From Cognaticolwellia mytili (GTDB lineage Bacteria; Pseudomonadota; Gammaproteobacteria; Enterobacterales; Alteromonadaceae), in NCBI RefSeq assembly GCF_002104475.1, contig NZ_NBOF01000008.1:1-64000 (forward strand): a DNA stretch of 64,000 bases. The letters are read 5' to 3'. A program made the position numbers and the translations under genes. Positions 8,362 to 56,654 of this stretch are shown here, in pieces. The notes beneath the pieces were generated by a model. The model was not told where the DNA came from. It was given only the letters and a program-made list of their open reading frames with translations, and did no database searches. Each line of letters opens with the position of its first letter. Position 1 is the stretch's first letter.

Positions 8362-10179
8362 GTGCTAGATAAATTACGTAATGTCGCAATCATCGCCCAC
8401 GTTGACCATGGTAAAACAACCTTGGTTGACAAGTTATTAGAACAGTCAGGTACGCTTGATGCTCGAGGCGGTCTTGAAGAACGCACGATGGACTCGAACG
8501 ATATCGAGAAAGAACGTGGTATTACTATTTTAGCTAAGAACACGGCAATTAACTACAAGGACTACCGTGTAAACATCGTAGATACTCCTGGCCATGCTGA
8601 TTTTGGTGGTGAAGTTGAGCGTGTAATGTCAATGGTAGATTCTGTACTACTAATTGTTGATGCGCAAGAAGGTCCAATGCCGCAAACTCGCTTTGTGACA
8701 CAAAAAGCGTTCGCTCAAGGTTTAAAGCCAATTGTTGTTATCAATAAAGTTGATAAGCCTGGTTCTCGTCCTGATTGGGTTATGGATCAAGTTTTCGAAT
8801 TATTTGACAACTTAGGCGCAACTGACGAACAGCTAGACTTTAAAGTGGTTTACGCTTCAGCAATCAATGGCTGGGCATCACTTGAAGAAGGCGAAACTGG
8901 TTCAGACATGACACCATTGTTTGAAACAATTCTTTCAGAAGTTCCTGCACCACAAGCAGACCCTGAAGGGGCATTTCAAATGCAAATTTCTCAACTTGAT
9001 TATAGCTCATACTTAGGCGTAATCGGTGTTGGTCGTATCATGCGTGGTAGCGTTAAGCCTAACCAACAAGTAACAATACAATTAGCAAACGGTGGTGTAC
9101 ACAATGCTAAAGTAGGTAAAGTTTTTGGTTACTTAGGTTTAGAGCGTCATGACATTGCAGAAGGTTTTGCTGGTGATATTATTGCAATCACTGGTTTAGG
9201 CGAATTGAAAATCTCAGATACTATTTGTTGTCCAACAGAAGTTGAAGGTTTACCAGCGCTATCTATCGATGAACCTACTATTAACATGACTTTCCAAGTT
9301 AATACTTCACCATTTTGTGGTAAAGAAGGCAAGTATGTTACTTCACGTAACATTAAAGATCGTTTAGAAAAAGAACTTGTACATAACGTTGCTTTACGCG
9401 TTGAACAACTAGATGATCCTGATAAGTTTAAAGTATCTGGTCGTGGTGAATTACATTTAGGCATCTTAATTGAAAACATGCGTCGTGAAGGTTACGAAAT
9501 CGCAGTATCACGTCCTGAAGTAATTGAACGTGAAATTGATGGTGTATTACACGAACCATACGAAACAGTAACTATCGATGTTGAAGAACAACATCAAGGT
9601 CCTATCATGGAGAAGATGGGTGTTCGTAAAGCAGAATTAACTGATATGGCACCAGATGGTACTGGTCGTATTCGTATGGACTTCATCATGCCAAGTCGTG
9701 GTTTAATCGGTTTCCAAACTGAATTTATGACATTAACTTCTGGCTCTGGTTTGATTTACCATACATTCTTTGAATACGGTCCTCATAAAGGTGGCGATAT
9801 CGGCCAACGTAAAAATGGTGTAATGATTGCCAATGCAACAGGTAAAGCATTAACTAACGCGATATTCAACTTACAGTCTCGTGGTCGTATGTTGATCGGT
9901 CACGGTATTGATATTTATGAAGGTCAAGTTATTGGTATTCATAGCCGTGATAACGATTTAACGGTAAACGCTCTTAAAGGCAAGCAGTTAACTAACGTTC
10001 GTTCATCAGGTACTGATGAAGCGCAAACATTAACGCCACCTATTCTTATGTCTCTTGAGCAAGCTCTTGAGTTTATTGATAACGATGAATTGGTTGAAGT
10101 AACACCTGAAAGTATTCGTATACGTAAGAAATTCTTAAAAGAATCTGACCGTAAACGTGAAGGTCGCTCTGCTAAATAG
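8362..10179 (+). CDS. typA: translational GTPase TypA/BipA
   Basis: TypA is a ribosome-associated GTPase of the EF-G/LepA family, needed for 50S assembly and growth at low temperature. The 605 residues are the usual length. The G-domain motifs are AHVDHGKTT (G1), RGITI (G2), DTPGHADF (G3) and NKVDKPGSR (G4), followed by domains II, III, V and a C-terminal tail ending in a Lys/Arg-rich segment. The start codon is GTG, chosen because [17 protein letters not shown] is the conserved N-terminus of the family. Transcribed away from glnA, the same arrangement as in E. coli. Confidence 0.98.
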
Positions 10180-10201
10180 ACTTTAGTAAATTACTGATTT
10201 A

Positions 10202-10235
10202 AAAAACCACTTGGGGTACCTCAAGTGGTTTTTTT
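10202..10235 (+). terminator. typA terminator
   Basis: AAAAACCACTTG at 10202-10213 pairs with CAAGTGGTTTTT at 10222-10233 and is followed by more T. It lies 22 nt after the typA stop. Confidence 0.9.
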
Positions 10236-10503
10236 ATGCTTTTTTATCCACAATGCAAAGATTATAAATGTAAGACATGTCTCAAAATACTATCAGCTAT
10301 AAGCATAGCTAATTCATCAAGATTATTAATTATTAATTAAAAACAGTATGTTAGAAGTTTAGATGGAAAGTCATCTGTCAACTATTCAATATTTATTTTA
10401 AATCCATTTTTATCTACCTTTTAGAATTAAGCTCTGCTGCTATAGTTATAGGTACCTATAATTATAGCTTCAGTACTTTACAATACTGAGAAAGGTAAAA
10501 TAC
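10236..10503. other. intergenic region with a 30-bp palindrome (10439-10468)
   Basis: Bases 10439-10468 form an inverted repeat centred on GGTACC, with 14 of 15 pairs perfect and the other a G-T (G-U in RNA) pair. It ends 35 nt before the start of the first tiny gene. It could be an operator for a dimeric repressor or a stable RNA hairpin in the leader. There is no T run, so it is not a terminator. The rest (10236-10436) is AT-rich with no gene evident. Confidence 0.6.
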
Positions 10504-10686
10504 ATGGAACCGAGTAAACTTGTAAGGCTAAACCGTTTATTTGAAAAGGCTGTTGCCAATAATGCACAACTATTAGAAAAACGTGAACTTGATGAGTTAT
10601 ATGATGAGTTTATTAATGATGGCCGCGATAAAAAAAGTAGTAATATGGTGATTTTCCCACGAGTAGGAAAATGTACTGTAGGTTGA
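10504..10686 (+). CDS. small protein of unknown function (60 aa)
   Basis: This is a 60-residue acidic/basic mixed protein, predicted largely helical (SKLVRLNRLFEKAVANNAQ), with no membrane segment or signal peptide. A good ribosome site (AAAGG, ten bases upstream of ATG) supports translation. It is followed 42 nt later by another tiny gene whose first 35 residues have the same pattern (L-x2-L-x2-LF-x5-A then Q, then L-x2-L-x2-E/F), so the two may be paralogues. The function is unknown. Confidence 0.6.
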   Translation: MEPSKLVRLNRLFEKAVANNAQLLEKRELDELYDEFINDGRDKKSSNMVIFPRVGKCTVG

Positions 10687-10728
10687 AATGAATGCTATTG
10701 CTAATAAGTAAAGAAGAAGGAACTTTTA

Positions 10729-10887
10729 ATGTCACCTGAGCAACTGAAGAATTTACAGCAACTAGGTCAACTATTTGAAAGTGGTTTGGCTGGCCCAAAA
10801 CAAATGAAACAATTATCAGAATTGTTAGCAGAAGTTAGTGCATCATCTGATAATTTGAATGCGCGGTTTGACACGCTACCGTTATAG
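10729..10887 (+). CDS. small protein of unknown function (52 aa)
   Basis: The frame from ATG 10729 to TAG 10887 encodes 52 residues beginning MSPEQLKNLQQLGQLFESG and ending FDTLPL. A strong ribosome site (AAGAAGG) lies eight bases upstream. The protein is rich in Leu and Gln, looks helical and has no membrane segment. It resembles the preceding 60-residue protein in spacing of hydrophobic residues and probably shares its transcript. Function unknown. Confidence 0.6.
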   Translation: MSPEQLKNLQQLGQLFESGLAGPKQMKQLSELLAEVSASSDNLNARFDTLPL

Positions 10888-11023
10888 CTGCTCCTTTTTT
10901 CTCTTCCCTAAATAAAATTCCAATAATATTCATGTATAAAATCATTTATAAATAATGATATTTTGACAATGCACTACCGTTCCTTCCTGCATTATCTTAA
11001 TATATTAGTAATTGTAATTAATA

Positions 11024-11899
11024 GTGACGATTATGCACCCTAAGTTAGAAGAAATGAAACAGCACCATTATGTAAATAGAGGACTAAGTTTTTTATCTTT
11101 ATTTCTGAATAATTTAAAAAAAGAGCACATTCACGTCACAGCAGGTTACCTATCGTATGTAACGCTAATGTCATTAGTGCCGTTAATGGTAGTGATGTTA
11201 TCTATGATGACTGCTTTTCCTATTTTTTCTGAAATTAGAGAATTGATTGAAAATTTTGTTTATCAGAACTTTATCCCTGCATCAGGGGATGTCGTTCGTG
11301 AATACATAACGGGCTTCGTCAGTAATACATCAAAAATGTCAACCGTAGCAATCACAGCACTATTTGTTCTTGCTATGTTGCTCATTTCTGCAATCGATAA
11401 ATGTTTGAATAAATTATGGCGAGTAAATGAAAAGCGGCAAGTAATGACTTCTTTCTCAATGTATTGGATGGTGCTAACACTGGGGCCTGTTCTTGTCGGC
11501 AGTAGCTTAGTGATGACTTCTTATATTTTTTCTTTAGTGTCTCTTGGTGATTATGACTTTCTAGGTATTACCAATATATTGGTTCGTGCCTTGCCTTTAT
11601 TTGCCTCAATTGCTGCATTTTTTATTTTGTATATGGTGGTGCCAAACAAAATTATCCCCGTTAAGTTTGCCTTTGCAGGCGCGGCACTAGCTGCTGTATT
11701 ATTTGAAATCGCAAAAAAAGCATTTGCTATCTATATTATCCAGTTACCATCTTATCAAGTTATTTATGGGGCACTATCAAGTATCCCAATTTTATTTTTA
11801 TGGGTATATTTAAGTTGGCTAGTGGTGCTTGTTGGCGCATTATTTACCGTTTCACTAGAAGACTTTGATATCAAAAGTAAAAAAGAAGCTAATCGGTAA
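11024..11899 (+). CDS. yihY: YihY/BrkB family inner-membrane protein
   Basis: This 291-residue integral membrane protein belongs to the UPF0761/YihY family, once misassigned as RNase BN; its activity is not established. About six hydrophobic segments are visible, including [35 protein letters not shown] and [16 protein letters not shown]. The family signature [20 protein letters not shown] lies near the C-terminus. The start is uncertain: GTG 11024 or ATG 11033; neither has a good ribosome site. In E. coli yihY is followed by dtd and yiiD. Here the same order is kept, with pip and a methyltransferase-like gene inserted. Confidence 0.88.
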
Positions 11900-11983
11900 T
11901 AGGCTGAATTTTAATATTATGTGAGCATCGCTATTTACTGTTCTAGTACCTAAACTGAAGCTATTCCCTTCGAGGAGAAATAC

Positions 11984-12961
11984 ATGTCTAGAGTGCTTTT
12001 CCCCAAAATTTCCGCATACCAAAAAGAATGGTTAGATGTTCGAGGTGGTCATCAGTTATACATTGAACAGTCAGGCAACCCTGATGGCATTGCCGTTATA
12101 TATCTTCATGGCGGTCCTGGTGGCGGTTGTAGTGAGCATCATCGTCGTTATTTTGACCCTGAAAAATATCGTATTATCCTTATCGATCAGCGAGGTTGTG
12201 GTCGCTCTCGACCTTCTCCCAGCATCGATAATAATACGAGTGCTGACTTAGTTGAAGACATTGAGAATATTCGCCTACGTTTGGATATTGGGTATTGGTT
12301 AGTGGCTGGAGGATCTTGGGGTACTACCTTAGCAATGCTCTACGGTATTAAATACCCTAAAGCAGTGCTAGGCTTTATTTTGAGGGGAGTTTTTCTCGGG
12401 AATGACTCTGAATACCGGTGGCTTTATCATAATACTGGCGCGGCCTGTTTTTTTCCTGAATATTACCAAGAGTTTAATCAGCATATTTCAGGGGTAAACC
12501 ATAAAAAATTACTACAGGAGTATTATGAGGTATTGACGGGTAGTAATGAAATTGCCGCTATTGCCGCAAGTAAAGCTTGGTGCTTATGGGAGTTACGGCT
12601 ATCTACTATCGAGCATCATCACATTGACATTAGGCATGTTGACGATGCACACCAAGCACTATGCATGGCGAAGATCTCTAGCCACTACTTTGTTAACCAT
12701 TGCTTTATTGAAGAAAACTTTATATTAAATAACTTGGCCGTTATTTCTGATATACCTGCCATTATATTACATGGTCGATATGATATGGTTTGTCAGTTAA
12801 TCCATGCTCATCAACTTGTGCAACTCTGGCCTAATGCTCAATTACAAATCCTGCCAAAGGCTGGGCATGGCGGTTTTGAATCACAAACGATTGATGGTTT
12901 TTGCAAAGCAGCGGATACTATGGCTAACTTTATTACAGAGCAAGGAAATATGGGTAAATGA
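11984..12961 (+). CDS. pip: prolyl aminopeptidase
   Basis: This alpha/beta-hydrolase releases N-terminal proline from peptides (peptidase family S33). The 325 residues fit the family. Motifs seen are the oxyanion-hole segment HGGPGGGC, the [11 protein letters not shown] strand, the nucleophile elbow GGSWGTTLA, the acidic residue in GRYDMVC and the catalytic histidine in AGHGG. The ATG follows GAGGAG, a strong ribosome site. It overlaps the next gene, dtd, by four bases (ATGA), so the two are co-translated. Confidence 0.96.
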
Positions 12962-13395
12962 TTGCATTGTTACAGAGAGTCTCTGAGGCGAGTGTTAGTG
13001 TTGATAATAACGTTGTAGGTGAAATAGATCAGGGTTTACTGGTTTTGCTTGCTATTGAACCTGAAGATAATAAAGAAAAAGCTAAACGTCTTGCTGAACG
13101 AGTTGCAGGCTACCGTATTTTTGAAGATGATAGTGGTAAAATGAATTTAAACGTGAGGCAAATAAAGGGCGAGATACTCGTTGTTTCTCAGTTTACTCTC
13201 GCTGCAAATACATCAAAAGGGCTGCGTCCAAGTTTTACTAGTGCTGCTCGTCCTGAATTAAGTAAAGCATTATACCTACATTTTTGTCAGCGGCTGCGTC
13301 AATTAGACTTTGCAGTACCCACAGGGGTTTTTGGTGCTGATATGCAAGTTAGATTGCTAAATGATGGCCCTGTGACGATTAACTTACAGTGCTGA
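12958..13395 (+). CDS. dtd: D-aminoacyl-tRNA deacylase
   Basis: Dtd removes D-amino acids (and glycine from tRNA-Ala) mischarged on tRNA, a chiral proofreading step. The 145 residues are the standard length. The family motifs SQFTLAA and the C-terminal NDGPVT, which carries the cis Gly-Pro that selects chirality, are both present. It is translationally coupled to pip and convergent with the next gene, with 13 nt between stops. Confidence 0.97.
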
Positions 13396-13408
13396 TATAA
13401 ACTTTATA

Positions 13409-14176
13409 CTATGCCTTAATATGTTGAGAAAATAACTTACGCCACCGTTGATACTGCCATGCAGGTAGAAACGTAGCTTTTGAACGTTTTTTAGGGTTAC
13501 TGATAAGCCAATGGTTTGGTAAAAGGTGGATAACGATATTGAGGTAACGTGGAATATGAAAATAAATGATTTGGTGTGAATCCTGTAGTTGCTTCAATAT
13601 CGTTAAACATAGATTAATTTCATGATCATCGAGATCTGGTAAGTTAATGGTTAAGCAGCCATCTTCTGCCAAATTATCGACTAAAGCGGTCAATAACTTT
13701 ACTCTATTTTGAAAGCTGTCAGCATGGTGTTGGTATACATCACAAATTAACCAGTCTGCAGATTTTCTTTCAACACGTTCTTTGTTCTGTAACCACGTAA
13801 GTGCTGCTTCATTTTCGATAGAAGTATTACGTTGCGATGGGTTAAAGAAATCATCAAAGCAACGAATAACTTGACTAGAAAGTTCAACGCTAACAACTTC
13901 AATATCTGAATTTAATGCAGTTAAAAATCGACTGATGTTACCACCACCTAGACCTAGTTCTATCACCTGTTTTGGTTTAAAAAATAATAGTGGCATTAAC
14001 GCAGCGTATTGATGTGGCAAGGTTAGCTTTTTAGGCTGCCTTAAATGCATAATACTTTGAATAACATCATCAAACATTAACCAACGATAATATTTATTTT
14101 CAAGAATGGATATTTGGCTGTCATCATTACTGAGGTACACTAGTTTATATTGACTAATATTTTGAGATATTTTCAC
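13409..14176 (-). CDS. spermidine synthase-like SAM-dependent methyltransferase-fold protein
   Basis: This 255-residue protein has a Rossmann-fold nucleotide site: VIELGLGGGNISRFL is the SAM/dcSAM loop, followed by VVSVELSSQVI and DWLICDVYQ, as in spermidine/spermine synthase-like proteins. The full set of polyamine-binding residues cannot be confirmed, and many such short proteins are not true spermidine synthases. It is monocistronic, convergent with dtd and divergent from the YiiD-like gene. Substrate unknown. Confidence 0.75.
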   Translation of the reverse strand: MKISQNISQYKLVYLSNDDSQISILENKYYRWLMFDDVIQSIMHLRQPKKLTLPHQYAALMPLLFFKPKQVIELGLGGGNISRFLTALNSDIEVVSVELSSQVIRCFDDFFNPSQRNTSIENEAALTWLQNKERVERKSADWLICDVYQHHADSFQNRVKLLTALVDNLAEDGCLTINLPDLDDHEINLCLTILKQLQDSHQIIYFHIPRYLNIVIHLLPNHWLISNPKKRSKATFLPAWQYQRWRKLFSQHIKA

Positions 14177-14266
14177 GTGCTTTTTATTATCCTGAAATTA
14201 ATAGCTTAACTTTGGATGTTTATTGTTCGTTAAGTATCTCATTAACTAACCCGTTTGGTAAAAATA

Positions 14267-15172
14267 ATGTACAAATGTAGGGCGCCAAAAAATCAAACTG
14301 AATTAAATGCTTATTATCAACTTCGCTGGAAAATATTACGAAGCCCTTGGCAGCAGCCTAAAGGTAGTGAAAAAGATGAATTCGAATCACAATCATATCA
14401 TCGAGTGATCTTGGATGATATGGATAATGTTGTCGGTGTTGGTCGCTTACATAAAACAGCGCAGAATAGTGCGCAAGTACGCTTTATGGCGATTGCAGAT
14501 AATGCACAAGGAAAAGGCTTGGGTAAGTTACTCTTAGAAGAGTTTGAAAAAGTTGCTCGGCAAGTAGGCGTTACTCAAATAGAGCTCAAAGCAAGGGAAA
14601 ATGTCGTTGGCTTTTATCTACAGTTAGGCTATCAAGAGCAAGGCTTTTCACATACGCTCTATGATGTGGTACACCATACCAAAATGTGTAAAGAACTGAC
14701 TAGTGCTAGTAGTAACTTAGTAGAAAAAACACAACACCTGCAAGGTATTTGGCATCGAACGATCCCGTTGAGTAAAGCAATGAATATTAATATTTGTTAT
14801 TTTGATCAACAGCAACTAGTGACAAATTGTGAGCCTATATTTAATAAAAATTTACACAATACTATGTTTGCGGGCAGCATTTACACTCTTGCGACACTAA
14901 CTGGTTGGGGCTGGGTATACTTTGCATTGCAGCAATATCAGCAGAAGGCTGATATTGTTTTAGCAGAAGGTAGTATTCGCTATCTTGCACCACTGGCAGG
15001 CGTTGCATATGCAAAAACGTCTCATGCCTTAGTTTCAGGGAGTGGTGATGCGCTGGCTTTGGGCAAAAATGCTCGCTTTACTATTGAAGTGAAAATTGGC
15101 TGTGGAGATAAAACGGTTGCTATTTTTACTGGCTCTTTTGTGGCAGTTTTAAAAACTGACAAGCTAGTTTAA
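14267..15172 (+). CDS. yiiD: GNAT acetyltransferase fused to thioesterase domain (YiiD/FabY-like)
   Basis: The N-terminal half (about 1-145) is a GNAT acyltransferase with the acetyl-CoA loop AQGKGLGKLL. The C-terminal half (about 155-300) is the YiiD_C hotdog thioesterase-like domain, with NLHNTMFAGSIYTLATLTGWG. E. coli YiiD has the same fusion and has been linked to initiation of fatty acid synthesis. ATG 14267 is taken as start; a TTG 12 nt upstream is in frame but has no ribosome site. It follows the yihY-dtd region as in E. coli. Confidence 0.88.
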   Translation: MYKCRAPKNQTELNAYYQLRWKILRSPWQQPKGSEKDEFESQSYHRVILDDMDNVVGVGRLHKTAQNSAQVRFMAIADNAQGKGLGKLLLEEFEKVARQVGVTQIELKARENVVGFYLQLGYQEQGFSHTLYDVVHHTKMCKELTSASSNLVEKTQHLQGIWHRTIPLSKAMNINICYFDQQQLVTNCEPIFNKNLHNTMFAGSIYTLATLTGWGWVYFALQQYQQKADIVLAEGSIRYLAPLAGVAYAKTSHALVSGSGDALALGKNARFTIEVKIGCGDKTVAIFTGSFVAVLKTDKLV

Positions 15173-43555: not shown

Positions 43556-44023
43556 TTACTTGTCGAAACTAAACTCAATATAGGCTTTACCATGTTCGGC
43601 TGAAGCAAGTGGGATAATAACAATTGGTCCATCAGCTTTATGAGTAATCGTATGATTTGTACCGGAAACCACCATAGGTGTCGCCATATCAAATTCAATA
43701 CCTTTTTCACTCAACATACGCTTGGCACCACCAGTGACCATATTGGTAATCTCACCCACTAAATCAGTAATTTCTTCGTTAATTTCGTCAGGCCCTTCAC
43801 CAACCATGCTTTTCATTGTTGCTAAAGCAAGTTTTCCTTCGAACGTAATAGATAGCGAACCTTTGGTTTGTTCACTTACCATACCTATTAAACCAGAAAC
43901 ATCGCCATGTGCGACTTCATTTTTTTTCAAACGCGGCTTCTCAGGTGTAAGTTCCATTCTAGCCATGGTCGACATAACATTAAGCATTGAAGATAAAAAC
44001 GGATTAATAAACTCTACATTCAT
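43556..44023 (-). CDS. cheX: CheX family chemotaxis phosphatase/inhibitor
   Basis: This is a 155-residue CheX/CheC-type protein. CheX dephosphorylates CheY-P in some bacteria. The E-N catalytic pair is seen in EEITDLVGEITNMVTGGAK, and the N-terminus MNVEFINPFLSSMLNVM is family-like. ATG 44023 is preferred (GGAAA nine bases upstream) over a TTG 12 nt earlier. It is not in a chemotaxis cluster here. Confidence 0.9.
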   Translation of the reverse strand: MNVEFINPFLSSMLNVMSTMARMELTPEKPRLKKNEVAHGDVSGLIGMVSEQTKGSLSITFEGKLALATMKSMVGEGPDEINEEITDLVGEITNMVTGGAKRMLSEKGIEFDMATPMVVSGTNHTITHKADGPIVIIPLASAEHGKAYIEFSFDK

Positions 44024-44098
44024 GAAGATTTCCAAAACTTTTGGTGTTAACTGGTTGGTTACTTTTTTAACTGTATCAGAAAATTAAGTCTACCAGTA

Positions 44099-47362: not shown

Positions 47363-47755
47363 TTAGTCCCTTATGATGTTTAAGTTGAGTTTTTGTAAAA
47401 TTTGTTCAATGAAGTGTTTGTTGTAGTCTTTTTCTATACATGTCGTGAAGTTAAATTCTTCAGCAATGCGCAAATGACGAGGAGTAAAAACGCCACTAAG
47501 TAAAAAAATGGGAATATTAATAGCTTTAGCTTGGATGAATTCAACCATTTCTGTGCCTTCACCATCGGGTAGGTTCCAGTCAATTAAGGCCGCAATATGC
47601 TTATCAAATTTAAATGATTTTTTTCCTTCCTCGATGGTTTCTGCAACATCGAGAATAATATCTTGTGCTGGACAATATCGCTCAATACACATCTGCAATA
47701 ACTCTACGTCACCTTCATTGTCTTCAACATACAGCAGATAGTAGGCTTCACTCAT
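47363..47755 (-). CDS. single-domain response regulator
   Basis: This is a 130-residue receiver with no output domain. The acidic pocket is in LLYVEDNEGD, the phospho-acceptor is Asp59 in LIDWNLPDG, the switch Ser is in LLSG and the lysine in CIEKD. It is the last gene of the locus and overlaps the end of the kinase gene upstream by eight bases. It probably acts as a diffusible phosphocarrier or allosteric output. Confidence 0.88.
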   Translation of the reverse strand: MSEAYYLLYVEDNEGDVELLQMCIERYCPAQDIILDVAETIEEGKKSFKFDKHIAALIDWNLPDGEGTEMVEFIQAKAINIPIFLLSGVFTPRHLRIAEEFNFTTCIEKDYNKHFIEQILQKLNLNIIRD

Positions 47756-48500
47756 TTGATAGTCCCTTAGTTAGATGCTTTGGAATAGTAAAATAAAATG
47801 CGCTACCACCGTTGTTGTTTGATTCTAACCATATGCGCCCTTTATGCTGTTGAAGTATTTTATTCACAATGGCTAAACCCATACCAAGGCCCGGAAATTT
47901 TTTGTCCGAAACGCCGCGTTTTAGTACTTTAAAAATTTTCTTTTGTACTTTTTCGTCGACGCCTATGCCGTTGTCTGTGATACAAAACTGCCAATCATTA
48001 GTTTGTTCAATTGCTGTAATATTAATATTGCAGTGTTGCTTTTGAGGTTGATAAGTTAAGGCATTATGAATAAGACACTCAAATAGTAGAGTTATTTTTT
48101 TTGGGTCGCCGATAATTTCTGGTAGGTTATTGCAAGTGATTGAAGCGCTTACCTCGTCGAACATCGCTAGCAACTTTACTTTTGTATCAGAGACGATTTT
48201 ATTGAGATCTAATAAAACAAAAGGCTGCGTCATAGTATTTAGGTGTGAATAACTTCTTATCGCTTCTAAAATTGATTTAGCTTGATTAGACCCTCCTTGA
48301 ATTAGAGCAAGATGACGTTTGGTTTTCTCATCAAAACTATCGGCATGCCTACTGACGATAATTTCGCTAAAGCCTTCTATCTGTCGTAAGGGTGCACTAA
48401 GATCGTGCGAAACAATATAGACAAACTCGTCGTATTCTATTTTAAGCGCAGCAAGTTCTTGACGAGCTATCTTTAACTCATTTTCTAATTTATCATTCAT
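47748..48500 (-). CDS. cytosolic sensor histidine kinase
   Basis: This is a 250-residue kinase with no membrane segment and no recognised sensor domain. A coiled-coil N-terminus leads to the phospho-His box VSHDLSAPLRQIEGFSE (His32) and a GHKL ATPase domain (HNALTYQPQKQH, TDNGIGVDEK, GLGMGLAIVN). ATG 48500 is chosen for its AAGGTG ribosome site; a longer frame would run back through the preceding receiver gene. It lies 14 nt after that receiver gene and is probably activated by it. Confidence 0.9.
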   Translation of the reverse strand: MNDKLENELKIARQELAALKIEYDEFVYIVSHDLSAPLRQIEGFSEIIVSRHADSFDEKTKRHLALIQGGSNQAKSILEAIRSYSHLNTMTQPFVLLDLNKIVSDTKVKLLAMFDEVSASITCNNLPEIIGDPKKITLLFECLIHNALTYQPQKQHCNINITAIEQTNDWQFCITDNGIGVDEKVQKKIFKVLKRGVSDKKFPGLGMGLAIVNKILQQHKGRIWLESNNNGGSAFYFTIPKHLTKGLSNE

Positions 48501-48514
48501 GTATTCACCTTGTC

Positions 48515-48964
48515 TTACTTGAAGGCTTTCGAGGGTAAGCAAACAATATCGACCCAAAAATTTTCAACGCTTTTTACTACATCCATAAACTTTACTGCAT
48601 TAACTGGCTTTACGATGTAACAATTAGCGTGCAGGTCGTAACTACTGACAACGTCTTTGTCTGCTTTTGAACTGGTTAATATAATAACCGGAATTCGTCT
48701 AAGTGAAGGCTCAGCTTTAATGGTTTCTAATACTTCTCTACCATCAGTACTGGGTAAGTTTAAATCTAATAAAATAATATCGGGCCTTACGGCATTCTCA
48801 TATTCATTACGTTTAAATAAATAATCTAAGGCAATATCTCCATCTTCAGCAATATGAAGATTATTACGAAACTTTGCCTCCTCAAAAGCCTCACGGGTCA
48901 GTTCTATATCACCTTCATTATCTTCAACAAGTAAAATTTCTGCTAAGCGAGTGTCATGCGTCAT
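48515..48964 (-). CDS. Rcp1-type single-domain response regulator
   Basis: This is a 149-residue receiver of the Rcp1 subfamily that partners phytochrome-like kinases. It has ILLVEDNEGDIELT, phospho-acceptor Asp67 in LLDLNLPSTDG, ILTSSKAD and the lysine of YIVKPVNA. It overlaps the big kinase gene stop by four bases (48961-48964), so it is almost certainly that kinase's cognate receiver. Confidence 0.93.
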   Translation of the reverse strand: MTHDTRLAEILLVEDNEGDIELTREAFEEAKFRNNLHIAEDGDIALDYLFKRNEYENAVRPDIILLDLNLPSTDGREVLETIKAEPSLRRIPVIILTSSKADKDVVSSYDLHANCYIVKPVNAVKFMDVVKSVENFWVDIVCLPSKAFK

Positions 48965-51900
48965 GATATATCCTCAATAATTGTTGGTTTTAATAATTTA
49001 ACGTAAAAAGTTGAACCTATTCCCTTTTCTGATTCAACCCAAATACTACCACCGTGGCGTTCAGTGACTTTTTTACAAATAGATAATCCAACACCTGTAC
49101 CAGCATATTGGCTTCTTCGATGTAAACGTTGAAACACTTCGAATATTTTCTTCAAATGCCGTTCTTCCATACCAATACCGTTGTCTTTGATACTAAAAGT
49201 CCAGTGTTGGTCGCTATCTTCCACGCTAACGTGCACATGAGGTTCTACGTTAGGTTTTTGATATTTTAAACCGTTGTTAATTAAGTTTTGAAATAGTTGG
49301 AATAGCTGAGTTTTATTGCCTTGCAAGGTAGGTAGGGAGTCAAAGGTTATTCTACCTTTTGTGTTTTCGGCTGTATCTAGCATATTACTTTTAATAATAG
49401 TAATAATCTCTACAATGTTAACGCTTTCAAGTAGTTGAGTGTCAGTGCTGATGCTTGAGTATGTTAAAATATCAGTGATCAGTGTTTGTGCTCGTGCTGC
49501 ACCATCAATAACAAAGTGAAAGTATTTTTTCCCTTTGACATCATGCTCTAGGCTTTCAGCAATGTGGTCTTGGAGTTTTTCTGAAAAGCTACGTACCATT
49601 CTTAAAGGCTCTTGCAAATCATGCGAACAGACAAAAGCAAAACGTTCTAACTCTTCATTAGAATCGGTTAATTTGTCAATAAGCTTTTCTCGTTCTTTTT
49701 CTTGTTCTACCCGAGCACTAACATCACGAATAATACCACTAAACTTGCGGGTGCTACCAAAATACATCTCACTAACAGAAAGCTCTATAGGGAAAATAGT
49801 GCCATCTTTACGTTTACCTTCAACATAGCGACCAATGCCGATAATTTTCTTAACGCCGGTATCACGATAACTTTTTAAATAGCCGTCATGTTCACCGTGA
49901 TATGGCTCAGGCATCAATATTTTGATATTAACGCCAATAACTTCCTCTGGGCTGTAACCAAAAATTTTCTGAGCTGCTTGATTGAATTTTTCAATAGTAC
50001 CCACCTCATTAATAGTCAATAGGCCATCGACGGCGTTTTCTACAACAGCTCTGTGCTGCTCCTCACTTTCAATAAGTTTTTCAGTGAAGCTATCACGCTC
50101 TTTTTCTAAGGCAACGCGTTCACTAACATCACGGATAATACCACTGAATTTTTTAATACTACCAAAGTTCATTTCACTAACAGAAAGCTCTATAGGGAAA
50201 ATAGTGCCATCTTTACGTTTACCTTCAACATAGCGACCAATGCCGATAATTTTCTTAACGCCGGTATCACGATAACTTTTTAAATAGCCGTCATGTTCAC
50301 CGTGATATGGCTCAGGCATCAATATTTTGATATTAACGCCAATAACTTCCTCTGGGCTGTAACCAAAAATTTTCTGAGCTGCTTGATTGAATTTTTCAAT
50401 AGTACCTACCTCATCAATAGTCAGTAGCCCATCGACGGCATTTTCTACAACTGCTCTATGTTGCTCTTCACTTGCTTGTAATTCATATGTTCTCTTACTT
50501 ACTTGATTCTCGACAACCTCACGACGACGTATAAGAGAGTAAATGCCTAAAGTGATAACACCAGATAGCACTAAACCACTAATCAATACTAACCATTGAG
50601 ATAAAATGCTTGGGCTTTCTTTTGTATCGTTATATGTGGTAATACGCCAGTTTCTGTTAGCAACGGTAATCACTTCAACTCGAGATAAGCTTTGGCTCTC
50701 TTGTTTAAGACCGTAGATTGTTTCAACGTGATCAGGCTCTGAAATATCTTCGATATGCATTAATACTTGATTGCTCTCCTCAATTGATAACTCTTCAATT
50801 AGCTCGCTAATTCTTAGTACCAATACAGCAAAGCCAAGCAACTTCTGCTGCTGTTTTAAATTGTTGGTAACTGAATTTTCTTCATAAACAGGGGTGAAAA
50901 TTAGAATACCAGCTTGAGTGACTGAATTTTGAACCAAGTTTATACGCGCGGTTGCAACCTTATCACCGTAGGCTATCGCGTTATTAAGCGCTGCTAAACG
51001 TTTAAGATCTGAAGCAAGATCAAAACCAATCGCGTGTTCATTGCCCTTTAACGGAACAACGTAATAAACTGGAAAATAGCTGTCACGTTCCGTAGCGGTG
51101 ATAAGTTCGCCATTACTACTTTTTTCTTTAATAGTGAAATGACTTAAACCGTCTGCTATTGCCTCTTTTTTGTAGGCATCACGTTGCTCATGGGGCACAA
51201 AAGGCACCCATTCTACTGCTTGAATACTTTTGTAGCGTAATAAGGCTGGGGTTACGAAGGTTGAAAAATCTTGTCGACTTACATTGTCTGAAGCACCATA
51301 AAGTGCTTTGACAAAATCTATAACTTGCAGGTTGGCGTTTATGTTTTTACGCAGTGCTTTTATTTTTTGCTTACTATCAAAAATAAGCTCTTTTTCAATA
51401 ACTGCATTTTTAATATTCGATGAAATCATAAAAGCGGCAATGCTAGCGCTAATCCCAATAATGCCGACAACAACAGGAAAAGTATAAGTTCTCCAAGTGA
51501 AGGTTTGGTGCCTTTTAATTTTATTTCTTCTTAATAAACTACGATAACCTATAACAGCAAGCAGAAGAAAAGATAGTGAAAAGCTAACTAACAACACTAA
51601 CAGTATGCTGTTTTGTAGAGAGCGCTTACTTTTATTAATAATTATGTCGTCTGTTATATAGGTAAAGGTGATGTTAGGGACTTGCAGCAGTAACGAATTT
51701 TCTCGAATTAATTCAATGCTATCAGTACCCGTACTAACCGTAATAGGACCTTGAACTAATTTGAATGCGACACTTTTATTAAATGATTGGCTGACAAATA
51801 TATCCTGTAAGGAGCTAGTTATTTCGCTGCTTAAGATGCCTTCTACGTGACCGTTATAGATTATAGGAACTGATATTTTAAAGGTAAGTAATGGGCCTTC

Positions 51901-52383
51901 TTGGCTTAATAACTGAAAATGATAGGGGATGATGCTATTGATTACTTGCGTTAACCACAAAGGTTCACCAGTATAATTAGCTTGTAATTGATTATCTGTC
52001 TTAATAAGAATGTTACCTGCAATATCTTGTAGTACTAAGCGACTTTTCTTACCTCCTATAGAAGCATTATCGAGTAATTGATGGGTGGCTCGATCACTCG
52101 CGTCAGACAGCATTACTGCACTTGTCAGACTTGGATATGCGGCTAAGTTTTCAACGATAGTTTGTTGGCTTTCAATAAAACGAGCGAATAAGGCTGCCTC
52201 TAGTGCTAATTCTGCCTGTATGTCTTTATTATGCTGTGATTCCAATAACTGATTAATTTTTGGCATGATGACAAAAGCGCTCAATAGCATAATCAATAAA
52301 AATAGGCTGATCGAGAAAATACCATAAACTCGTAAAACAGAAAACTCTAATGGTGATCTATGTTTCTTTGCTGCAGTTGTCAT
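48961..52383 (-). CDS. multi-sensor histidine kinase with CHASE and tandem FixL-like PAS domains
   Basis: A 1140-residue transmembrane kinase. Order: membrane helix (about 15-38); periplasmic domain (about 45-255, Cache-like by length); two helices (about 258-280 and 300-320); periplasmic CHASE domain (about 340-560, with the AVEWVPFVPHEQRDAY segment); helix near 600-618; PAS1 (638-772); PAS2 (773-907); phospho-His box with His921 in CSHDLQEPLRM; ATPase domain (FQNLINNGLKYQ, KDNGIGMEE, GTGVGLSICK). Each PAS has MPEP-x4-HDGYL and IIGIGR, like the haem-PAS of FixL. Its start overlaps the binding-protein stop by one base. Confidence 0.93.
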   Translation of the reverse strand: MTTAAKKHRSPLEFSVLRVYGIFSISLFLLIMLLSAFVIMPKINQLLESQHNKDIQAELALEAALFARFIESQQTIVENLAAYPSLTSAVMLSDASDRATHQLLDNASIGGKKSRLVLQDIAGNILIKTDNQLQANYTGEPLWLTQVINSIIPYHFQLLSQEGPLLTFKISVPIIYNGHVEGILSSEITSSLQDIFVSQSFNKSVAFKLVQGPITVSTGTDSIELIRENSLLLQVPNITFTYITDDIIINKSKRSLQNSILLVLLVSFSLSFLLLAVIGYRSLLRRNKIKRHQTFTWRTYTFPVVVGIIGISASIAAFMISSNIKNAVIEKELIFDSKQKIKALRKNINANLQVIDFVKALYGASDNVSRQDFSTFVTPALLRYKSIQAVEWVPFVPHEQRDAYKKEAIADGLSHFTIKEKSSNGELITATERDSYFPVYYVVPLKGNEHAIGFDLASDLKRLAALNNAIAYGDKVATARINLVQNSVTQAGILIFTPVYEENSVTNNLKQQQKLLGFAVLVLRISELIEELSIEESNQVLMHIEDISEPDHVETIYGLKQESQSLSRVEVITVANRNWRITTYNDTKESPSILSQWLVLISGLVLSGVITLGIYSLIRRREVVENQVSKRTYELQASEEQHRAVVENAVDGLLTIDEVGTIEKFNQAAQKIFGYSPEEVIGVNIKILMPEPYHGEHDGYLKSYRDTGVKKIIGIGRYVEGKRKDGTIFPIELSVSEMNFGSIKKFSGIIRDVSERVALEKERDSFTEKLIESEEQHRAVVENAVDGLLTINEVGTIEKFNQAAQKIFGYSPEEVIGVNIKILMPEPYHGEHDGYLKSYRDTGVKKIIGIGRYVEGKRKDGTIFPIELSVSEMYFGSTRKFSGIIRDVSARVEQEKEREKLIDKLTDSNEELERFAFVCSHDLQEPLRMVRSFSEKLQDHIAESLEHDVKGKKYFHFVIDGAARAQTLITDILTYSSISTDTQLLESVNIVEIITIIKSNMLDTAENTKGRITFDSLPTLQGNKTQLFQLFQNLINNGLKYQKPNVEPHVHVSVEDSDQHWTFSIKDNGIGMEERHLKKIFEVFQRLHRRSQYAGTGVGLSICKKVTERHGGSIWVESEKGIGSTFYVKLLKPTIIEDIS
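49663..50472 (-). repeat. tandem duplication of a 405-bp PAS-coding unit
   Basis: Unit 1 is 50068-50472 and unit 2 is 49663-50067, each encoding 135 residues. About 232 nt (50175-50406 versus 49770-50001) look identical, while the flanks differ mainly at third codon positions. This suggests duplication followed by gene conversion of the core. Confidence 0.9.
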
Positions 52384-53609
52384 CAGTTACCCTGTGAAAT
52401 TAAGACTTCGCCATGTTGGCCAAACTGCCCCATGCAGTAATTTTCTGCATTTAGGGCTTCATGGCCGTTAAAGTTTTGTTTTTCGTCAAAAGCTGAAAAA
52501 GGCTTATTGTAAGTTTTGACGAGCCCTCGAATAGGAGTGCCCAATTCTTCTAAAGCTAAGCGTATGGCATTTCGGTCAACCGCTATATTACCTGTTATGC
52601 CCGCTTGCTTTATCGCATCAATAAGTAACTTGCTCAGGTCGTATGCATGGATAAAACCAACTGCTGACTTTAGATCTGTTGCTTTTTTTATCGCACCTTG
52701 CGAATGTTCCTGTAGTTGTAAAAATACATGATTAGCAAGCGGGCTTTGCTTCGGATTAGTAAAGGAAAAACAAGATTGAATAAAATGTAGTTCCAGTTCG
52801 CTTAGCCCCTCAGAGCTGACTTTTTCGTGAAAATCACCTCCAGTGATCCCCCAATGACTGATAATAGGCAAGCGATCACTTTTAGATAGCTTGAGTACCT
52901 CATTTACTATGACTGCTCCTTCGACGGCATTACTTACCAAGACAATACAATCACTACCTTGCTGCCTTATTTCGTTAAGAATTTCACGCGCTCCTTTTGC
53001 TTTTAGGTTCCAGCTAAAACGTACCACTTTGGGCGCTTCAATTGAGTACTTTTTTAATGCTTTTGTCATACTCGTTAAGTTTGAAATCCCCCAAGGAGTT
53101 TCTTCAAGCAATAGATGGGGGCTACGGCACTTTTGTGTTTTAATGGCAAAATCGATAATGACAGGACCCGCTTGAGTATCATCAACAGATAATCTAAATA
53201 CCCAATTTTCTTTTGATGGGTAGCGCGTTATTGGGCCTCCTGCTGCCCAAGGTACGAGGGTTAGTGCTTTGTTCTCGTTAATAAAATTTCGATTTTTGAT
53301 TAACGGTGGTGAGTGAATGCCTGAATAAATAACCAAGGCATTGGGGTCTGCAAGAAACTGTTGATAATTTCTTTTACTTCTAATGACATTGCCACGGTGA
53401 TCTAAATATTTAAAGGCAATACTATAGCCTTCAATTTGATTGTTAATTTCCTTAAAAGCGACTTCAATACCTTTTTGAATGGCTTCAGATGATTCGTTGT
53501 GGTTAGAAAGGTCGGCATCTTGATATATGTAGAGAGTTTTATCTTCTGCCAACAATGAAAAAGCAGATAAATAAAGCAGCGCGACAAACGTTTTTATGCA
53601 TTTACTCAT
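52383..53609 (-). CDS. periplasmic type I binding protein (amino-acid/LivJ-like), sensory partner
   Basis: This is a 408-residue exported solute-binding protein of the Peripla_BP_6 fold. The signal peptide ends near SLLA-ED without a lipobox cysteine, so it should be soluble. The type I two-lobed pattern is seen in SEAIQKGIEVAFKEINNQI, LDHRGN, NALVIYSGIHSPP and GSDCIVLVSNAVEGA. No permease or ATPase genes accompany it. Its stop is fused (TGATG) to the kinase start, so it probably presents ligand to the kinase, as TorT and LuxP do for theirs. Confidence 0.88.
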   Translation of the reverse strand: MSKCIKTFVALLYLSAFSLLAEDKTLYIYQDADLSNHNESSEAIQKGIEVAFKEINNQIEGYSIAFKYLDHRGNVIRSKRNYQQFLADPNALVIYSGIHSPPLIKNRNFINENKALTLVPWAAGGPITRYPSKENWVFRLSVDDTQAGPVIIDFAIKTQKCRSPHLLLEETPWGISNLTSMTKALKKYSIEAPKVVRFSWNLKAKGAREILNEIRQQGSDCIVLVSNAVEGAVIVNEVLKLSKSDRLPIISHWGITGGDFHEKVSSEGLSELELHFIQSCFSFTNPKQSPLANHVFLQLQEHSQGAIKKATDLKSAVGFIHAYDLSKLLIDAIKQAGITGNIAVDRNAIRLALEELGTPIRGLVKTYNKPFSAFDEKQNFNGHEALNAENYCMGQFGQHGEVLISQGN

Positions 53610-55499: not shown

Positions 55500-56654
55500 T
55501 TAGTTTTTATTACCTGCACTTTTTGGCCAGATAATGGTAAAAACAGCACCGCCTCCTTGTTGATCTTCAATAACAATACTTCCAGCATATAGCGCTAATG
55601 TCTTTTTCACTATGGCTAAGCCTAGCCCGCTACTTTCTAATTCGTCTTTAGGTTTTAATGTTTGAAAAGGCTGAAAAATTTTATCTTTAAACTCAGGGGG
55701 AATGCCAGGGCCATCATCGGAAACTAGTAATTGATAATGATCTGTATGCGATAAGCAATTAATTTTAATAATGCCTGAGCCTTTATGATGGTGCTTAATT
55801 GCATTAGAGATTAAATGCTGTAGGACGATCATCAATGGCGGCTTAGGAAGTTCTATATCACTACCACTAACTTGAACGTCAAAATGATGGCTGTTATCTA
55901 ATAACTCACAGCATTCAGAAATAATTGTTTTCAAACCGATGTGTTCAGGACTAGTGTCACAGCGGCTTATTCTCGCGTAGCTTGCTAAACCTTTTAATAA
56001 ACGATGCATCCTTTCAATGCTATTTTTTATCATTTTAAAATACTTCGGGTTATCGCGAGTAATGCCTTGTTCAGCGTCTTCTTCAATCCAAGAAACCAAG
56101 TTTTTTATGGCATTTAATGGTGATGCTAAGTCGTGTGATGCGATATAAGTAAATTCATCTAGGTCTTTATTGAGCGTTTGGCGAAGTTGAGTAAGTTCAC
56201 TTAATAGCTGTTCTTTTCTTAAAACTTCGACATGCAAAACGATATCTCTAGCTAATAACTTAAGCATTATGTTCTGATGACTGTCTAGACGTTTGGGCTT
56301 GATATCGAAAAGGCATATCGCGCCGACAACACAGCCATCATTGGTGATCAGAGGAATGCCAATAAGGTGCCTTACAGCCTTATTTGCTAGTAGAATGTTT
56401 TGTTGGCTGAAGCGTTCATCTTGTTGTAGGTCATGTACTTCAACTAAGCTCTTCTGAGCAATAACAAAATCAGATACTAAAGCAATGCTTTCATCGTTGC
56501 CCTTGTCCTTGTTTGGCTGATACTTACTCCATTTATGTGTTAAGAAATCAAGGTGTATATAGCAAAGAGAACTTTCACACGAGGCCATTACAACCGCTAT
56601 AAACTCTTCAAATACTCCGTCAAAATTATTATCGTTCCATTGATTTTTTTTCAT
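55500..56654 (-). CDS. GAF-domain sensor histidine kinase
   Basis: This is a 384-residue soluble kinase with a GAF-like N-terminal domain (about 15-140, with HLIGIPLITNDGCVVGAICLF), a coiled coil, phospho-His box ASHDLASPLNAIKNL, and an ATPase domain (HLISNAIKHHHKG, DDGPGIPPE, GLGLAIVKK). The GAF ligand is unknown; no chromophore cysteine is obvious. It is the first gene of the signalling group, 45 nt upstream of the GGDEF/EAL regulator, so it is that protein's likely kinase. Confidence 0.9.
   Translation of the reverse strand: MKKNQWNDNNFDGVFEEFIAVVMASCESSLCYIHLDFLTHKWSKYQPNKDKGNDESIALVSDFVIAQKSLVEVHDLQQDERFSQQNILLANKAVRHLIGIPLITNDGCVVGAICLFDIKPKRLDSHQNIMLKLLARDIVLHVEVLRKEQLLSELTQLRQTLNKDLDEFTYIASHDLASPLNAIKNLVSWIEEDAEQGITRDNPKYFKMIKNSIERMHRLLKGLASYARISRCDTSPEHIGLKTIISECCELLDNSHHFDVQVSGSDIELPKPPLMIVLQHLISNAIKHHHKGSGIIKINCLSHTDHYQLLVSDDGPGIPPEFKDKIFQPFQTLKPKDELESSGLGLAIVKKTLALYAGSIVIEDQQGGGAVFTIIWPKSAGNKN

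Follow-up and report, generated by a model that had tools for sequence, protein, structure and literature searches.

A LivJ-type binding protein encoded together with a sensor kinase in Cognaticolwellia mytili: a probable ligand-sensing pair

In Cognaticolwellia mytili, the gene for a periplasmic binding protein of the Peripla_BP_6 (LivJ-type) family (hereafter BP) runs into the gene for a sensor kinase on the minus strand of contig NZ_NBOF01000008.1, positions 1 to 64,000; this whole stretch of 64,000 nucleotides is called the window. What does a protein of a transport family do beside a kinase, when none of the 20 selected neighbouring genes (29.5-63.2 kb) has a Pfam match to an ATP-binding cassette (ABC) permease or ABC ATPase, as the initial annotation of the window had also observed? 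The explanation that best covers the whole of the evidence, to which we give a probability of roughly three in four, is that BP works as the kinase's own dedicated subunit, a soluble protein that senses the ligand and docks on S1, the first of the two periplasmic regions of the kinase.

The gene pair and its recurrence among relatives

The stop codon TGA of BP (52385-52383) and the start codon ATG of the kinase (52383-52381) have one base in common, and from this TGATG overlap translational coupling of the two genes may be supposed. The initial annotation gave the coordinates of both genes and the overlap correctly, together with the Sec signal without a lipobox (the former seen by eye, the latter by a negative pattern test); the two were called fused translationally, which holds for the overlap of the genes, yet they are two genes and not one protein. 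A single frame containing BP and receptor was found at none of the loci whose long frames were read; these frames carry BP C-terminally, behind DctP in the five scanned with Pfam.

A search for BP in its own order matched 26 of 394 genomes at E 1e-10. For its class and phylum a profile was used at E 1e-40, which matched 18 of 369 and 57 of 398 genomes respectively; these samples overlap. Surroundings were read at 88 loci from the order, class and phylum searches, with 17 phylum matches left out, and a separate scan of genome contigs yielded one further locus, L004, to give 89. An S1-receptor gene lies downstream of BP at 61 of them, at 60 as the next gene and at L121 as the next but one, where a spurious overlapping frame separates the two. 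The gaps between BP and receptor, approximate because start codons were taken as the first possible ones, lie between -47 and +44 bases in 59 of the 61. Thus, judged on the recurrence count alone, chance adjacency of the two genes is unlikely; the gene pair is conserved, and the sensory role first proposed for BP is supported. The 61 include a broken copy, L059, which entered neither the BP tree nor the receptor scans; it consists of BP and receptor fragments, and the same genome has an intact pair at L047.

LivH and/or LivM-LivG genes were found at 25 of the 89 loci (LivH called in 18), neither receptor nor Liv genes at three (L052, L157 and L163, contig end), and both at none. LivH-like matches were absent from the sensory regions, as were S1 matches from the transport regions; in five of the sensory regions there is an ABC ATPase-type match, 5.9-7.9 kb away from BP. 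Using an S1 profile trained on own-order loci and L004 only, the 60 loci outside the own order were divided into 35 with S1 (26-161 bits), 23 of the transport form and two with neither. Plasmid records with a BP relative numbered 11, of which nine were read: BP followed by an S1 kinase is present in those of Pseudoalteromonas piscicida 2515 and Pseudoalteromonas sp. NC201 and in four Azospirillum records, and the transport form in those of Rhodobacteraceae SC52, Cupriavidus campinensis and Novosphingobium PP1Y. As the pair is also found on plasmids of Azospirillum, with cow dung and soil among the sources, the restriction to marine bacteria originally suggested is not established.

In an IQ-TREE phylogeny of 88 BPs, one branch (100/99) splits the 25 transport members and L157 from the other 62, which are 36 plain sensory BPs, 24 fusions with a DctP domain, L052 and L163. 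A conserved downstream permease in relatives, which the initial annotation had named as evidence against its proposal, was seen in this separate transport clade only. Because no root was inferred for the tree, the direction of change between transport and sensory members is a guess. Rather than a single new system, the pair represents one branch of a family that is old and widespread. Three sensory proteins (L042, L118 and L114) match a loose lipobox pattern. In the operons at L060, L125, L144 and L146, all on the transport side, there is a gene for an amidohydrolase, an amidase, an AllH-like protein or an Asp/Glu/hydantoin racemase, which hints that the transport members have cyclic amides or ureides as substrates.

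S1 as the putative docking site, and the ligand

S1 was aligned from 46 receptors; 12 of 58 (L122, L134, L135, L137-L140, L142, L143, L148, L158 and L159), most of them near-duplicates or incomplete first matches, were left out. The stretch from the first to the second transmembrane (TM) helix, TM1-S1-TM2, measures 265-273 residues in all 46. The AlphaFold2 model of S1 (mean local confidence, pLDDT, 89.4; predicted TM-score, pTM, 0.81) has two modules resembling PAS domains, together with a long helix. The first-ranked Foldseek match was a chemoreceptor model (E 3.8e-6), followed by KinD (5.4e-6) and DctB (5.4e-6), with LuxQ of Vibrio cholerae at rank 13 (3c38, E 1e-4) and that of V. harveyi at rank 27 (2hje, E 3.8e-4); query TM-scores against the KinD, DctB and LuxQ sensors are modest (0.43-0.53). 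Pfam dCache_1 matched 27 of the 46 S1 domains at E 0.01, that of the window not among them. We regard S1 as a predicted double-Cache domain, of the fold class of LuxQ.

BP sequences have a median pairwise identity of 33%, S1 domains one of 16%. The spacing R.WY, which we take to represent the pocket arginine and the W-Y pair of dCache_1AA domains, occurs in none of the 46 S1 domains, in which they differ from the dCache_1AA amino-acid sensors; direct amino-acid sensing by S1 was rejected on this ground. In those sensors the pocket arginine is exemplified by R126 of PctA (PMC10104139). Since S1 is so little conserved and lacks the pattern, its properties would fit a platform for docking more than a pocket for amino acids. 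Furthermore, BP and S1 distances are closely correlated over 46 pairs (r 0.80; maximum of 2000 permutations 0.13). In partial Mantel tests on the 42 pairs with a kinase domain, BP correlates with S1 at 0.74 when the kinase domain is controlled for (maximum of 2000 permutations 0.15), and with the kinase domain at -0.14 when S1 is controlled for. Because the kinase domain and S1 are parts of one polypeptide, this co-divergence points to S1 as the co-inherited partner of BP.

The kinase of the window has four TM helices in a hydropathy scan (residues 22-40, 260-278, 302-320 and 600-618) and hence two periplasmic regions, one of them a CHASE domain, just as had been annotated. Pfam matched CHASE (E 1.9e-43), two PAS domains, HisKA (26.8 bits, just under the cut-off of 26.9) and HATPase_c. 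Among the 60 receptors scanned, CHASE was found in this one only (1/36 of the plain type), and it is absent from the 16 families matched by the 24 DctP-type receptors. L004 keeps BP, S1 (93/219 residues identical), the TM3/TM4 hairpin, the kinase domain (155/241), the response regulator RR1 and the kinase HK2 (Table 1); it has no CHASE and its PAS region is shorter. In 23 other receptors two main helices flank S1 by hydropathy, some having one extra, mostly weaker, hydrophobic stretch. With CHASE missing in L004 and a two-helix layout elsewhere, CHASE looks like an insertion in the lineage of the window, absent or lost in L004, and the receptor of the window is an unusual four-helix member of the family with an extra CHASE. 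Since CHASE is so rare among the receptors and absent in the nearest relative, S1 is the likelier docking site for BP. L004 (positions 9932-14534; BP 62-64% identical) is the closest cassette relative found, and its contig is labelled as an alphaproteobacterial metagenome-assembled genome, which reflects either gene transfer or a mis-binned contig.

As for the ligand, E230 of BP is kept in 36/36 plain and 23/24 fused sensory BPs, against 9/25 transport members, and the frequencies of D31, R77 and H321 also differ between sensory and transport BPs. E230 aligns with a glutamate of 4n0q, solved with leucine, which presumably grips the amino group in LivJ-type proteins. The residue aligned with the threonine that we assume to bind the carboxylate in LivJ-type proteins is alanine in 33/36 plain and 24/24 fused sensory BPs. 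The AlphaFold2 model of BP (pLDDT 95.0) has as its top Foldseek match 4q6w (E 1.7e-19), solved with a 3-hydroxybenzoate-type ligand; by this analogy an aromatic acid would be as possible as an amino acid. The amino-acid-like ligand of the initial annotation is therefore not established, although E230 is kept. A guess at the ligand from neighbour genes gave no consistent answer across loci: paa genes come after the pair in three of the Azospirillum records and are absent from the 15 kb read in A. oryzae, and an aldehyde dehydrogenase gene adjoins L111.

The receptors that carry S1 end in a kinase, a hybrid kinase, GGDEF or GGDEF-EAL. HATPase_c is present in 32/36 plain and 22/24 DctP-type receptors, GGDEF in 3/36 and 1/24, and EAL in 2/36 and 1/24, three of the four GGDEF receptors also having EAL; at L114 and L116 the contig ends within the receptor. 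At 24 loci (L113, L114, L119-L121, L123, L124, L132-L134, L136-L143, L148, L158, L159, L162, L164 and L165), the protein is longer (697-828 residues): BP makes up its C-terminal half, and its first half matches DctP, the binding domain of tripartite ATP-independent periplasmic (TRAP) transporters. This class was defined by phmmer with one DctP domain (24/24), and Pfam PF03480 was confirmed in 5/5 scanned. The fusions have an N-terminal anchor or lipoprotein-like signal by eye and are followed by an S1 receptor; in the BP tree they are not one group (three label changes), L113 and L114 standing apart. DctM, the TRAP permease, is matched in 20 of the 23 fusion genomes, none of the matches being in the fusion regions; it lies on the contig of the fusion once, 200 kb off, many contigs being short. 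From its domains, such a DctP-BP fusion may possibly be a two-ligand sensor.

Proposed mechanism, rival explanations and the gene cluster

In the mechanism that we propose, BP would be exported and close on a small ligand, and the ligand-bound form would dock on S1 of the kinase dimer. The resulting change would cross the membrane to PAS and HisKA, switching the kinase in one direction or the other, and the kinase would set the phosphorylation of RR1. HK2, RR2 and the response regulator-GGDEF-EAL protein encoded upstream of BP are probable further steps, with a putative order of phosphotransfer and a putative cyclic di-GMP (c-di-GMP) output. CHASE, which lies between S1 and the kinase part, may provide an independent second input.

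Several observations weigh against this mechanism. LuxQ is not the top structural match of S1 (rank 13, query TM-score 0.43), and the Mantel values come from related sequences and from a kinase-domain alignment that is a rough cut. In the own order (388 genomes), the S1 profile reached 186-277 bits in all 24 genomes that have a sensory BP and in no others, the profile having been made from these same receptors, and it gave weaker matches (<57 bits) in 21 further genomes. S1-type kinases are present in genomes G163 (94.6 bits) and G186 (76.3 bits), which have no BP at E 1e-10, so that an S1 domain can exist without a BP of this type; the BP copy at L052, for its part, has no adjoining receptor. 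In Pseudomonas aeruginosa, two neighbourhoods of a solute-binding protein (SBP) and a kinase (AgtS and AruS) are reported to have given no binding (PMC11113362). Both the contact of BP with S1 and its ligand are, moreover, what we infer from sequence. The kinase gene of G163 is preceded by aminotransferase class III and glutamine amidotransferase genes (Pfam), with aldehyde dehydrogenase genes adjoining, and that of G186 is similar by eye; the neighbours of these BP-less kinases (L201:7869-10649 and L202:7927-10746, the latter by eye) suggest polyamine or GABA (gamma-aminobutyric acid) catabolism.

The last two sets of observations, the P. aeruginosa SBPs that failed to bind the adjoining kinases and the kinases without BP, would also be expected if the kinase sensed the ligand itself via S1 or CHASE, BP being merely co-regulated and serving a distant transporter or buffering the ligand; direct ligand binding is frequent in dCache domains (PMC10104139). 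We consider this unlikely. Own-genome matches to Peripla_BP_6 are three, and neither of the other two genes has a kinase beside it; the only two matches to BPD_transp_2 (LivH/LivM-type) lie together on another contig beside another BP, so that the sole permease pair of the genome has its own binding protein. In addition, the R.WY pattern is missing throughout S1, BP is better conserved than S1 and co-diverges with S1 and not with the kinase domain, and the sensory and transport BPs are separate groups in the tree. A further Peripla_BP_6 protein of this genome (L063:8718-9887, contig 12) adjoins neither a permease nor a kinase gene.

Docking of BP on CHASE, the only periplasmic domain of this kinase that Pfam recognises, is very improbable; it was rejected on the 1/60 occurrence of the domain, and L004 has BP and S1 without it. 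Hardly credible is a transport remnant, that is, an ABC operon that lost its permease genes beside an unrelated kinase: BP does come from a transport family whose transport members have LivH/LivM-G in the same place, but the pair stands at 61/89 loci (L059 broken) and one deep branch parts the transport members from it.

The genes around the pair form a signalling cluster on the minus strand in the order GAF-kinase, response regulator-GGDEF-EAL, BP, kinase, RR1, HK2 and RR2 (Table 1), in which the GGDEF-EAL protein may be a c-di-GMP output. A CheX-type phosphatase gene (window 43556-44035, minus strand) lies a few genes away. Scans for promoter-like sites (18, against 32.1 in shuffles) and terminator-like sites (6, against 7.0) were uninformative.

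Table 1. Features of the BP-kinase locus and its surroundings in the window
Feature	Position	Strand	Basis
BP, Peripla_BP_6 (LivJ-type) periplasmic binding protein, 408 aa	52383..53609	-	Pfam, E 1.1e-15
Sec-type signal peptide of BP, aa 1-21, without lipobox	53547..53609	-	signal by eye; lipobox by pattern test
TGATG, where the BP gene ends and the kinase gene begins	52381..52385	-	sequence
Sensor kinase, 1140 aa, TM-S1-TM-TM-CHASE-TM-PAS-PAS-HisKA-HATPase_c	48961..52383	-	Pfam and hydropathy scan
S1, first periplasmic region of kinase, aa 41-259, predicted double-Cache fold, likely (putative) BP docking site	51607..52263	-	
CHASE, second periplasmic region of kinase, aa 366-557	50713..51288	-	Pfam
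HisKA-HATPase_c kinase core, aa 914-1131	48991..49644	-	Pfam
RR1, single-domain response regulator, overlaps kinase by 4 bases, kept in L004	48515..48964	-	
HK2, histidine kinase without sensor region, kept in L004 (ATG start assumed; frame open from 48557)	47748..48500	-	
RR2, single-domain response regulator	47363..47755	-	
Response regulator-GGDEF-EAL protein, upstream of BP, not at this place in L004	53757..55454	-	
GAF-histidine kinase, upstream	55500..56654	-	

Relation to known systems and significance

Binding proteins that act as sensory subunits are known from several families. LuxP is a sugar-type binding protein, NspS of Vibrio cholerae is a polyamine-type protein of another family, and ArtI of Salmonella likewise belongs to an SBP family other than that of BP. 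In LuxP-LuxQ, the periplasmic binding protein is the ligand subunit and the kinase sensor has two tandem PDC domains (PMC8534201); autoinducer-2 does not bind LuxQ itself, according to the same paper. S1 is predicted, from AlphaFold2 and Foldseek, to share the fold class of the LuxQ sensor. However, BP is a Peripla_BP_6 protein that aligns with LivJ-type structures and did not qualify for the LuxP family, and the receptors here have varied outputs; the BP-kinase pair would by analogy work like LuxP-LuxQ, yet is not LuxPQ. TorT also stimulates a sensor kinase, TorS, and a structure of TorT with the TorS ligand-binding domain exists (PMC6321045), but the TorS sensor is all-helical (PMC8534201), whereas S1 is predicted to be double-Cache. 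NspS controls the membrane GGDEF-EAL receptor MbaA (PMC8967002), a likeness to the four of 60 receptors here with GGDEF, although the receptor of the window is a kinase. In Salmonella, the putative arginine-binding protein ArtI is required for arginine sensing by the dCache_1 diguanylate cyclase STM1987 (PMC8846402). CHASE-domain receptors resemble the kinase of the window in their periplasmic CHASE, a trait of this one member in the family.

The hydrophobic amino acid (HAAT, LivJHMGF-type) ABC transporters have binding proteins of the same Peripla_BP_6 family, and the transport side of the tree is encoded beside LivH and/or LivM-LivG. The sensory members differ from them in that no LivH-type permease was found with them and in the residue frequencies at E230, D31, R77 and H321; BP of the window has no cognate LivH/LivM among the 20 neighbouring genes or in the sole pair of the genome. 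A literature search found no description of a Peripla_BP_6-dCache family or of a DctP-BP fusion, which does not prove their absence from print. The principle of an SBP as sensory subunit is thus a known one, met here in a distinct family that is undescribed as far as searched.

We lean slightly towards a history in which LivJ-type transport and sensory lineages parted once, and in which BP and S1 became a portable unit on histidine kinases, hybrid kinases and c-di-GMP enzymes of Pseudomonadota, elaborated to two inputs either by CHASE in series, as in the window, or by DctP fusion, as in a membrane-anchored two-ligand sensor. SBP-dependent receptors are thought to be common and hard to find, and gene neighbourhood alone can mislead (PMC11113362). 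Here, the tree branch, the conserved partner domain and the co-divergence mark the family by sequence, so that its ligands and contacts are directly testable. The transport and sensory members offer a natural comparison for how a transport protein turns into a signal subunit, and the tandem DctP-BP fusions may read two nutrients together.

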